Part shown: positions 866 to 3,407 of the stretch, in pieces | Position numbering within the stretch: position 1 is the stretch's first letter | Layout: every line of letters starts with the position of its first letter | Source: a virus | Virus record (IMG/VR): IMGVR_UViG_3300046642_000421 | Location: 1-23,506 of that record | Strand: one strand, 5' to 3' | DNA length: 23,506 nt | The notes under the pieces: generated by a model | Told to the model about the DNA's origin: nothing | What the model saw: the letters and a program-made list of their open reading frames with translations, nothing else | Databases searched by the model: none | Position numbers and translations under genes: made by a program

Positions 866-1071
866 ACGCCGTACCTCGCTTTCCTGATTCGTTCCTCGAC
901 CTCTTCCCACGACCCCACCCATTCGCCGAGAACCAGATAGACCGTGTTGTCGTCGTAGTCCCAGCTCTGAATGACCTCGTATTCGGCCTTTTCGGGGTCG
1001 TCGGTCAGGTGGATGGCGTAGGGCACGCTGTAGGCGCTACCGCCGTGCTTCTCGTAGCCGGAAAGGTTCAC
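862..1071 (-). CDS. Hypothetical small acidic protein, 69 aa
   Basis: I do not recognise the family. The start is a GTG at 1071-1069 that overlaps the stop of the upstream ATPase gene as GTGA, and its own stop overlaps the ATG of the RNA ligase gene, so three genes are translationally coupled. The product is rich in Asp, Glu, Tyr and Trp (for example LTDDPEKAEYEVIQSWDYDD) and ends in a basic helix (EERIRKARYGV). There is no membrane segment or cysteine motif. Such proteins are common fillers in early phage operons. Confidence 0.75.
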   Translation of the reverse strand: MNLSGYEKHGGSAYSVPYAIHLTDDPEKAEYEVIQSWDYDDNTVYLVLGEWVGSWEEVEERIRKARYGV

Positions 1072-1865
1072 CCGGTCACCGCCATTCGTTCGAGGTCAAC
1101 AGACAGCGGCATAAACCAGCCGCCGGAAGGGTCAGATCTGCCGGTCCGGTTCTTGACCGGGCTCACGCCGATACTGCGTGCACCCTCAAGCGAGTCACCG
1201 CCGACACGGTGAAGCGCTAAGACAAGCTCCGGAACCTTCGAGATCTTTCCGCGTAGAGAAGACAGAGACGGGGGCTTAGTGCCGTCGTCAAAGTCGCCGG
1301 TGACGTGATGCAGACCAACCACACAAGCGCCGGTTTCCCGGGCAAGCTCATGAAGAAAGTCACACGTCGCTTCAAGGCTTTGGAAGCCGTCTGTGTTCAG
1401 CTCGTTGTCTAGGTTCGTGATGTTGTCCATCACGATCAGCGAAGGCCAGTCGCCGTAAACCATCCGGAACGCCTTGAGTTCCTGCTCAACGTCCGTCGCC
1501 GTGGGCGACGCCTTGAAGTCAAACTGAATGTGACTCCACTTGTGCAGAAGCACGTCAAGGTGCTCTGTCCTGCCCGCGTTCAGGGCCCGCTCAATGTCGT
1601 CTGTCGTCCACCCGGAGACCATCGCGGAAGCGCGAATAGTCATGGTGGCCTGGTCGGTGTCCGCCGAGAAGTACAGGCACGGCAGACCGGCCCGGATGGC
1701 GAGCGTGAGAGACAGGAGAGACTTACCTACGCCGGGGGCAGCCGCGATGAGTGCTAGCTGCCCCTGGCGGAAGTGGACGCCTTGAGAGGAGAGCGCCCGG
1801 AAGACGGGCGGGAGTGGTTCACCGGCTGACCCTCGCGTGAATCGTGCGCGCGAGAGCGAGAGCAT
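1068..1865 (-). CDS. RecA/DnaB-like ATPase, putative replicative helicase or recombinase
   Basis: The 265-aa protein has a Walker A motif AAPGVGKS at residues 42-49, a FSADTD segment at the expected end of strand 2, and a Walker B-like SLIVMDN near residue 145. These are followed by GLHHVTG and a loop containing SLSSLRGKISKVPELVL. The arrangement matches the RecA-fold DnaB C-terminal/AAA_25 group of phage ATPases. There is no DnaB N-terminal domain, so this is a one-domain form. The ATG at 1865 begins two bases after the upstream stop codon. With the neighbouring RecB-like nuclease and zinc-ribbon protein it probably forms the phage replication/recombination module. Helicase and RecA-like recombinase functions cannot be separated from the motifs alone. 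Confidence 0.85.
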   Translation of the reverse strand: MLSLSRARFTRGSAGEPLPPVFRALSSQGVHFRQGQLALIAAAPGVGKSLLSLTLAIRAGLPCLYFSADTDQATMTIRASAMVSGWTTDDIERALNAGRTEHLDVLLHKWSHIQFDFKASPTATDVEQELKAFRMVYGDWPSLIVMDNITNLDNELNTDGFQSLEATCDFLHELARETGACVVGLHHVTGDFDDGTKPPSLSSLRGKISKVPELVLALHRVGGDSLEGARSIGVSPVKNRTGRSDPSGGWFMPLSVDLERMAVTG

Positions 1866-1868
1866 CGG

Positions 1869-2294
1869 TTAGCGGCTGTTTCCCCACTCGGCCGCGCAAA
1901 CGCGGCTCGGGCAGTCGTACCGCGTGTAAGGCGAACCGTTCTTGCCGATGCCGGTCTTCAGCACGCGCATGCCGTGCTCGCAGTACTTCGCTTCACCCGG
2001 CGCGGCCGCGGGGGGTGCTGTAAAGCCTCCGGCCGGCTGAGACGGACCGGCCGCCCACGCCGGGGGGCCTGCCTGACTCGGTGGCACGGCCTGAGCGCCG
2101 AGGACTTCCCCCAGGAGAGAGCCGGTCTTGAACGCGCCGATGGCGCGGCCGAGCGCAGCGAAGAAACCGGAGTCAGGGGCGGCCAACGATTCCAGGGCCG
2201 CGTGCAACTCCTCCTCGTTGTCGGACTCGACAGTCAGCCACGGGGCGTCATGCGCCGCCCCGTACTTCAGGGACGTGTTGTACTTCAGCGTCAA
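1869..2294 (-). CDS. Zinc-ribbon early protein, possible ssDNA-binding accessory
   Basis: I prefer the TTG at 2294-2292 because GGAGG lies eight bases upstream (2307-2303); the longer reading from 2375 lacks a comparable signal and lies largely in the nuclease gene. The 141-aa product starts MTLKYNTSLKYGAAHDAPWL, followed by an acidic helix (ESDNEEELHAALESL). A Pro/Ala/Gly-rich linker follows. The C-terminus carries a Cys-His/Cys-Cys cluster (YCEHGM ... YDCPSRVC) that looks like a zinc ribbon. The N-terminal domain plus linker plus zinc ribbon, placed between nuclease and ATPase, suggests a DNA-binding partner, but I do not recognise the family firmly. The linker contains one GCTTTACAG motif, read as Gly-Phe-Thr. 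It overlaps the 3' end of the nuclease gene. Confidence 0.75.
   Translation of the reverse strand: MTLKYNTSLKYGAAHDAPWLTVESDNEEELHAALESLAAPDSGFFAALGRAIGAFKTGSLLGEVLGAQAVPPSQAGPPAWAAGPSQPAGGFTAPPAAAPGEAKYCEHGMRVLKTGIGKNGSPYTRYDCPSRVCAAEWGNSR
2018..2026 (-). repeat. Dispersed motif GCTTTACAG, copy 1
   Basis: Read on the coding strand as GGC TTT ACA G (Gly-Phe-Thr). The copy is the start of a 24-bp stretch (2018-2041) identical to 12164-12187 in the tape measure gene. Confidence 0.85.
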
Positions 2295-3102
2295 GGTCTG
2301 AACCTCCGTAGGTTTCTCGATCGGAACCGACCGCATCGCAGTACTGCGACACGGAGCAGACACGGCAGGCGTCACCCGGATTCGGAATGAAGACGCCCGC
2401 GTTGACTGCGCGGTCTAGCCGCGCGAACCAGCGGCCCAGACGGGCCGCCGTGTAGCCGTCCAGATCGAACGGCTTGGTTGGTGCGTTGTTCTTGCACATG
2501 AAGTAGTCGCCCCAGCGGGGGCGAATCCCGTACGTCTGCTCAACGGCTTCGGCGTAGACGCCGAGCTGTAGCGGACTGTTCGGGAGCTTGGAGCCGGTCT
2601 TGATGTCTCTGACCCACAGGTCACCGTCCGGCAGCTCTAGAACCTGGTCGATGAAGCCGACGACCTTGACGCCGCCTAGGACGATGGAGAACTGAAGCTC
2701 GACGGCCGGGCCGTCAGGGGACTGCCAGATGTCGAACGGATTCGACTGGGAGAACTCCAGGTAGGCCCTGACCTGATCGGCGCCCCGGTCCCGGCGCCGG
2801 CCAACGTCTTTAAAGCCGCTGATCGTCTTCGAGCCAGTGAGCCACTTCGACCTGTCGGGTTCGGCGGCCGTGAGAGCCGCTATGCCGCTGTCCCACGCGT
2901 TGAAGTAGACCGCCAGGGCTTGAGTCAGGCTGAGCGTCCTACCGGACAGCTCGAAGGCTTCCACGGCCGCGTGAACGGCCGTGCCCTGGAGTGTCCATGC
3001 GGCGGGGGTCTGTGGTGCCTTAGCGATTCGTTCGAGCCTGTAGGACTCGCCGCAGCGCGCCCACGTCGTGAGTTGTGAGACGGACCGGTGTCCGGCGCTC
3101 AG
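2248..3102 (-). CDS. Cas4/RecB-like PD-(D/E)XK nuclease with Fe-S cluster, CTG start
   Basis: The first standard start codon in frame is the GTG at 2964, but the frame is open upstream and encodes family features: VSQLTTWARCGESYRLERI followed by GTAVH. I therefore place the start at CTG 3102-3100, which overlaps the upstream TGA as CTGA, the same 4-bp coupling seen as ATGA/GTGA elsewhere; AAGGA lies six bases before it. The 284-aa product has GxxVH (residues 40-44), a GFID aspartate, the catalytic DIKTGS (D-x-K) and a QLGVYAEA helix. One N-terminal cysteine (Cys17) joins a C-terminal C-x2-C-x5-C cluster, the four-cysteine pattern of Fe-S Cas4/AddB-type exonucleases. It probably processes DNA ends in phage recombination or replication. 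The family call is strong; the CTG start is inference. Confidence 0.85.
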   Translation of the reverse strand: MSAGHRSVSQLTTWARCGESYRLERIAKAPQTPAAWTLQGTAVHAAVEAFELSGRTLSLTQALAVYFNAWDSGIAALTAAEPDRSKWLTGSKTISGFKDVGRRRDRGADQVRAYLEFSQSNPFDIWQSPDGPAVELQFSIVLGGVKVVGFIDQVLELPDGDLWVRDIKTGSKLPNSPLQLGVYAEAVEQTYGIRPRWGDYFMCKNNAPTKPFDLDGYTAARLGRWFARLDRAVNAGVFIPNPGDACRVCSVSQYCDAVGSDRETYGGSDLDAEVQHVPEVRGGA

Positions 3103-3407
3103 TCGCCGTCCTTGCCCTTGGCGGGGTGCTCGGCGATGCCGGACCGGATGAGGCCGAGCAGTCGGCGGGTGTGCTGGTCGGCTGCGATGGCTGAGACCTG
3201 GTTGAGCGCGGCGTACATGGCGTTCGAGAACTCGGCGAGCTGTTCGAGCGTGAGGGTCACCGCACAGGAAGTGTCCTCTTCGCTGGCCTCGATCGTGAGG
3301 CCCACCGTGTTGCCGAGGTCAACGGCCTGGAACCGCAGCTTGTCACCGTGGTACAGGCCCGAAACGAACCTGTAGCGGGCGCCGTGCGTGGGCGTGTCGT
3401 CGGTCAA
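3099..3407 (-). CDS. Hypothetical early protein, 102 aa
   Basis: I do not recognise the family. The chosen start is the TTG at 3407-3405, seven bases after GGAGG (3419-3415); the longer GTG reading from 3461 would begin inside a terminator hairpin. The product has a beta-rich first half (RYRFVSGLYHGDKLRFQAVD), an alpha-helical second half (LEQLAEFSNAMYAALNQ) and a charged C-terminus. The preceding gene ends in a terminator, so this gene may have its own promoter and may lead the nuclease-ATPase-ligase operon, with which it overlaps by CTGA. Confidence 0.75.
   Translation of the reverse strand: MTDDTPTHGARYRFVSGLYHGDKLRFQAVDLGNTVGLTIEASEEDTSCAVTLTLEQLAEFSNAMYAALNQVSAIAADQHTRRLLGLIRSGIAEHPAKGKDGD

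Follow-up and report, generated by a model that had tools for sequence, protein, structure and literature searches.

Among annotated bacterial genes, about 0.024% are reported to start with CUG, whose output in E. coli is 0.86% of that of AUG (PMC11497404). When leadered start codons were selected in M. smegmatis, CTG accounted for 0.03% and was unenriched (PMC4633059); this figure and the low output in E. coli count against the CTG start proposed here. Switches from AUG to CUG are likewise very rare (2 of 61,358; PMC5622118). Among coupled gene arrangements in prokaryotes, the 4-nt ATGA or GTGA overlap is the most frequent (PMC10666635), and a phage annotation guide lists CTG among the possible starts that gene callers may miss (PMC8785237). 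We found no report of a CTGA coupling in the literature that we searched, which does not itself prove its absence. A precedent is the rep gene of plasmid FIB, whose CTG start was shown by N-terminal analysis and by a CTG-to-CTC mutation (PMC11983097). The same study judges the codon to have been selected for low output and describes wide mis-annotation from a downstream GTG (PMC11983097).

Here we analyze a 23.5-kb virus contig of IMG/VR (the window) in which a gene for a Cas4/RecB-like nuclease appears to start with CTG. Like FIB rep, this gene keeps its CTG start among its close relatives and has a downstream GTG as the next standard start, and it shares with FIB rep the liability to mis-annotation and a proposed low-output role; unlike the nuclease, FIB rep is experimentally proven, belongs to plasmid replication, and is not described there with a stop-start overlap. 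At the protein level the nearest described relatives are the mycobacteriophage Cas4 exonucleases (for example, Miramae gp67 and SoilDragon gp76; phrog_1870/phrog_69), which share the HRSVSQL start region, the motifs and the cysteines, and several of which also have a 4-nt overlap onto the upstream gene. These proteins are about 45% identical to the window nuclease and start with ATG, GTG or TTG, whereas the window gene has CTG. The interest of the locus lies in this fixed CTG start within an NTGA overlap and not in the nuclease itself.

The nuclease and its neighbors

The nuclease gene occupies positions 2248..3102 on the minus strand, encodes 284 residues counted from the CTG, and ends with the TGA at 2250-2248. 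Its product passes the curated Pfam cut-off for PDDEXK_1 (77.6 bits against 22; E=1.8e-21) and matches two PHROGs families, phrog_1870 and phrog_69, both exonucleases. Matches were found in 1,260 GenBank phage records at identities of up to about 47%, and among the matches listed the majority are named exonuclease or Cas4 exonuclease. The protein is not a CRISPR Cas4 proper, since its score for PF01930 (Cas_Cas4) is 13.9 bits, below the cut-off of 22.7; we note that the label "Cas4" for such nucleases is the usage of phage annotators. A well-known family gains a new member in this nuclease, which is ordinary in itself. The catalytic residues of the PD-(D/E)XK fold, namely His44 in the GTAVH motif (motif I), Asp152, Asp166-x-Lys168 and Gln179-x3-Tyr183, corresponding to the catalytic His, Asp, (D/E)xK and QxxxY, are invariant in the 11 distinct sequences described below.

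The original prediction also held that Cys17 and a C-x2-C-x5-C group would form the four-cysteine pattern of Fe-S nucleases. The pattern is present (Cys17, Cys246, Cys249 and Cys255) and invariant, including in a relative of 46% identity (L041); the cluster itself we infer from the motif. In an AlphaFold model built with the 11-sequence alignment, only the nuclease core is predicted with confidence (mean pLDDT 71), and pLDDT falls below 50 at residues 1-33 and 238-254. Because the cysteine region is modeled with low confidence, the predicted Fe-S staple rests on motif conservation together with the known Fe-S binding of Cas4 and AddB (PMC3466216). The best PDB matches of the model are ACE1 (an Argonaute-associated Cas4-family nuclease, PDB 9iab), AdnA, AddB and Dna2; ACE1 and the AdnA/AddB nuclease domains are 15-18% identical to the window nuclease and have another genetic context.

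The nuclease gene sits within a minus-strand series of DNA-metabolism genes. Overall the genes are those of an actinobacterial siphovirus: a serine integrase, an L5/D29 gp49-like gene and a DnaB-like helicase were identified by Pfam and PHROG matches, and an endolysin and tail genes were assigned by eye in the list of open reading frames. Downstream lies the gene similar to gp49 of mycobacteriophages L5 and D29 (1869..2294, minus strand; PF25690, E=2.7e-13), whose 5' end, with a probable TTG start at 2294 preceded by GGAGG, overlaps the 3' end of the nuclease gene; the DnaB-like helicase follows (1068..1865, minus strand; phrog_243, E=9.8e-78). Upstream lies a gene of about 102 codons (3099..3407, minus strand) with a probable TTG start at 3407, also preceded by GGAGG. 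Homologous in all relatives, it ends in the TGA that it shares with the nuclease start, and it evolves fast, with identities among relatives down to about 30%; its product matched nothing in Pfam, PHROGs or GenBank phages. This gene is always paired with the CTG-started nuclease, and its product is a possible functional partner. Among GenBank phages searched at the DNA level none is close to the window, and no relatives turned up in the bacterial genome contigs that we scanned.

The CTGA junction

What marks the CTG as the start? On the minus strand the CTG (3102-3100) shares two bases with the TGA that ends the upstream gene (3101-3099), so that the two genes overlap by 4 nt, as CTGA, in the -1 sense. 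Within the upstream gene a Shine-Dalgarno-like AAGGA (3113-3109) precedes the CTG with a 6-nt spacer. The first standard start codon of the frame, GTG at 2964-2962, is residue 47. As the original prediction stated, the 46 codons before it (3102-2965) contain no ATG, GTG or TTG, and a start at this GTG would lose both Cys17 and GTAVH, which lie upstream of residue 47; Cys17 and His44 of GTAVH are invariant. Upstream of the CTG the window frame has no stop for about 216 nt, and from the window sequence alone other non-standard starts are conceivable.

Comparison with relatives narrows the choice. We scanned IMG/VR with the nuclease protein, with an alignment and with degenerate DNA patterns; the patterns represented protein motifs past the start, not the CTG, and thus did not select for it. 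Besides the window, 15 places in 14 contigs were recovered, giving with the window 11 distinct 5'-end sequences that span subclades 67-95% identical in amino acids. CTGA stands at the same place in all 11. Sequencing error as the source of the CTG was rejected because the identical CTGA is found in the 14 other contigs. One of these contigs (IMGVR_UViG_3300046678_000420; 89,947 b) carries two differing copies of the nuclease locus about 45 kb apart (L008/L033 and L009/L034), and may represent joined related phages or prophages, or a chimeric assembly.

In three relatives an in-frame stop lies just upstream of the CTG, at 3 codons in L028 and at 5 codons in L035 and L037. This stop excludes other upstream non-standard starts and leaves the CTG as the only credible start there. 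From the in-frame upstream stop to His44, the near-cognate codons common to all sequences are the CTG and one ACG, the latter being codon +40, within the GTAVH motif. The Shine-Dalgarno GGA is likewise invariant in the 11 sequences, and pairing with the anti-Shine-Dalgarno is predicted in all of them at about -4 to -8 kcal/mol, L038 having a weak Shine-Dalgarno.

Could the protein instead start at GTG 2964 or at another downstream codon, with the upstream segment untranslated? Gene callers choose such a start by default, and curators picked the same kind of start for mycobacteriophage Zetzy. However, substitutions in the N-terminal segment fall at the three codon positions as 192/162/858; with 858 of 1,212 at third positions, the segment is coding in the nuclease frame, and it holds the invariant Cys17 and His44. 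The first standard codon moves between residues 15, 47, 52, 56, 77 and 202 depending on the relative, so that no downstream start is conserved. When the relative is L028 or L030 (loci L016 and L026), this codon is residue 202, past the catalytic Asp166 and Lys168 and the other active-site motifs. GTG 2964 is itself unconserved, and it lies inside a confidently predicted helix (residues 35-52) that carries GTAVH and spans the start of the short form, which counts against it further. We regard a downstream start as extremely unlikely.

Alternatively, a -1 ribosomal frameshift could fuse the nuclease to the upstream protein, so that it would need no start of its own. The two frames do overlap in the -1 sense, and the open 216 nt in the window would accommodate such a fusion. 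Yet a slippery heptamer of the form X XXY YYZ, sought in the last 40 codons of the upstream gene, is absent from every relative; any slip in L028 would be confined to the last 3-4 codons; and distant homologues carry their own ATG, GTG or TTG at the same place. Furthermore, where this phage does frameshift, it has a textbook site: in the same window a genuine GGGAAAC (15098-15092, minus strand), the classic -1 heptamer, stands where the tail assembly chaperone gene ends (15394-15086, with the second frame at about 15125-14949, minus strand). The frameshift fusion is therefore very improbable. We note that the -1 extension of the tail chaperone, RLRLERLKEWALLARFFGWTPAEIRQLTLSEYRMFYGYAEALRDSGG, is conserved in L018, in a typical G/GT arrangement.

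We propose that the nuclease is translated from the CTG at 3102, most likely by termination-reinitiation, and we put the probability of this reading at roughly 0.87. The support is comparative: a coding segment, no standard start that fits the conserved protein, an invariant CTGA with a Shine-Dalgarno at a matching distance, and no frameshift site. The 4-nt stop-start overlap and the Shine-Dalgarno (AAGGA in the window, AAGGA or GGAG among the relatives) are those of termination-reinitiation pairs, and the comparison argues well for a conserved CTG start in a stop-start overlap as a rare variant of gene starts. Ribosomes ending the upstream gene would halt over the CTG with the Shine-Dalgarno just upstream, and re-initiation would most likely use the initiator tRNA. 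Initiation would then really occur at the CTG and would depend on upstream translation, and the weak codon may be kept so that nuclease levels stay low. A conserved RNA structure at the junction is unsupported (RNAalifold, -1.4 kcal/mol with a net unfavorable covariation term), and the 11 loci scanned for a phage-borne initiator tRNA, which are partial, contain no tRNA genes.

Fixation of the CTG

Is the C of the CTG held by selection? The last codon of the upstream gene is GAC, GCC, TCC or ACC, always with C in the third position. Among the 55 columns of the upstream gene that contain at least three amino acids, this is the only one in which a third-position C is fixed. When the codon is GCC, TCC or ACC, then a silent change would yield ATG, GTG or TTG at the nuclease start, and when it is GAC, as in the window, then it would yield TTG; no such change was seen. 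Similarly, of the 12 invariant leucine columns of the nuclease, only two, Leu1 (CTG) and one more, are encoded by the same codon throughout. The helicase serves as a control: its start in the same contigs varies among ATG, TTG and GTG, and the junction at its end is GTGA or ATGA in most of them. Because the 11 sequences share ancestry, these conservation counts are indications and not independent trials.

The same data can be read as neutral fixation, in which the CTG is the start but has simply stayed unchanged in a lineage with C-rich third positions, with no selection for a weak start. This reading agrees with the scheme proposed above in all but its last step. In its favor, the upstream gene has C at 54% of its third positions, the relatives share ancestry, and the DNA of the nuclease 5' end is strongly conserved, which fits recombination; against it, C is fixed in none of the other columns of the upstream gene in which the amino acid varies, the silent routes to ATG, GTG and TTG lie open and are never taken, and the helicase starts do change in the same contigs. 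We give neutral fixation a substantial chance, though one below even. Our preferred reading, as yet unproven, is that the CTG has been kept by selection for a weak start. Nuclease codons 5-8 (CAC CGG TCC GTC; 3090-3079, minus strand) are identical in DNA in all relatives, third positions included, which may reflect chance, recombination or a translation-related constraint.

More tentatively, CUG in such an overlap may be a coupling-only start, too weak for a free 30S subunit and usable after termination, that selection has fixed so that a potentially harmful nuclease is made in step with its upstream partner and at a low ratio to it. If so, CTG-started phage genes missed by annotation might lie hidden in NTGA overlaps quite generally. 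We hold this wider proposal to be possible but somewhat doubtful. The phage subclade that keeps CTGA, together with Zetzy, offers a direct test of whether a codon rejected by free ribosomes is accepted by terminating ones.

The wider family and mycobacteriophage Zetzy

From the wider family we examined 48 loci that carry the HRSVSQL motif followed by Tyr; Thermobifida phage P318 and RhynO were left out as start controls because of their longer annotated N-termini. Nearly all of the 48 have an ATG, GTG or TTG no more than about 20 codons before HRSVSQL, and so these homologues do cover the N-terminal segment, the check by alignment that the original prediction had called for. There are two exceptions, Zetzy (L091) and L056.

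Zetzy, which was isolated on M. smegmatis, has CTGA at the homologous site with a strong Shine-Dalgarno, AAGGAGGTG. In its sisters the same site is GTGA (Wooldri, Jobu08 and SoilDragon) or TTGA (Tiffany and PurpleHaze). GenBank annotates Zetzy gp74, "Cas4 exonuclease," from an internal ATG as 210 residues, against 271 in the sisters; counted from the CTGA start it also has 271. The truncated form leaves an unannotated gap of 179 nt and loses the motif-I histidine and the first cysteine, and the stretch left out, 61 residues from the CTG to the annotated ATG, includes PAAWLPQGSAVHTVLEEYR. Zetzy gp74 is thus probably annotated 61 residues short, its real start being the CTG in the CTGA overlap with gp75 (L106 926-1108; GenBank NC_054761.1 / MK279903.1 43612-43430). 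The truncation that had been foreseen for the window gene has in this way already befallen a relative, a concrete error in which gene callers limited to ATG, GTG and TTG deprive a nuclease of its active-site histidine and a putative cluster cysteine. By this comparison Zetzy is a second, independent CTGA in the nuclease family. It resembles the window gene in the homologous overlap and strong Shine-Dalgarno, but it is a single genome, and its GTGA and TTGA sisters point to a recent switch and not to a conserved state.

Finally, we note that L056 (IMGVR_UViG_2563366534_000004; HRSVSQL at reverse-strand index about 3495) has no ATG, GTG or TTG before HRSVSQL and has an in-frame stop 7 codons upstream, which leaves ATC or ACG as the sole candidates for a possible non-standard start.
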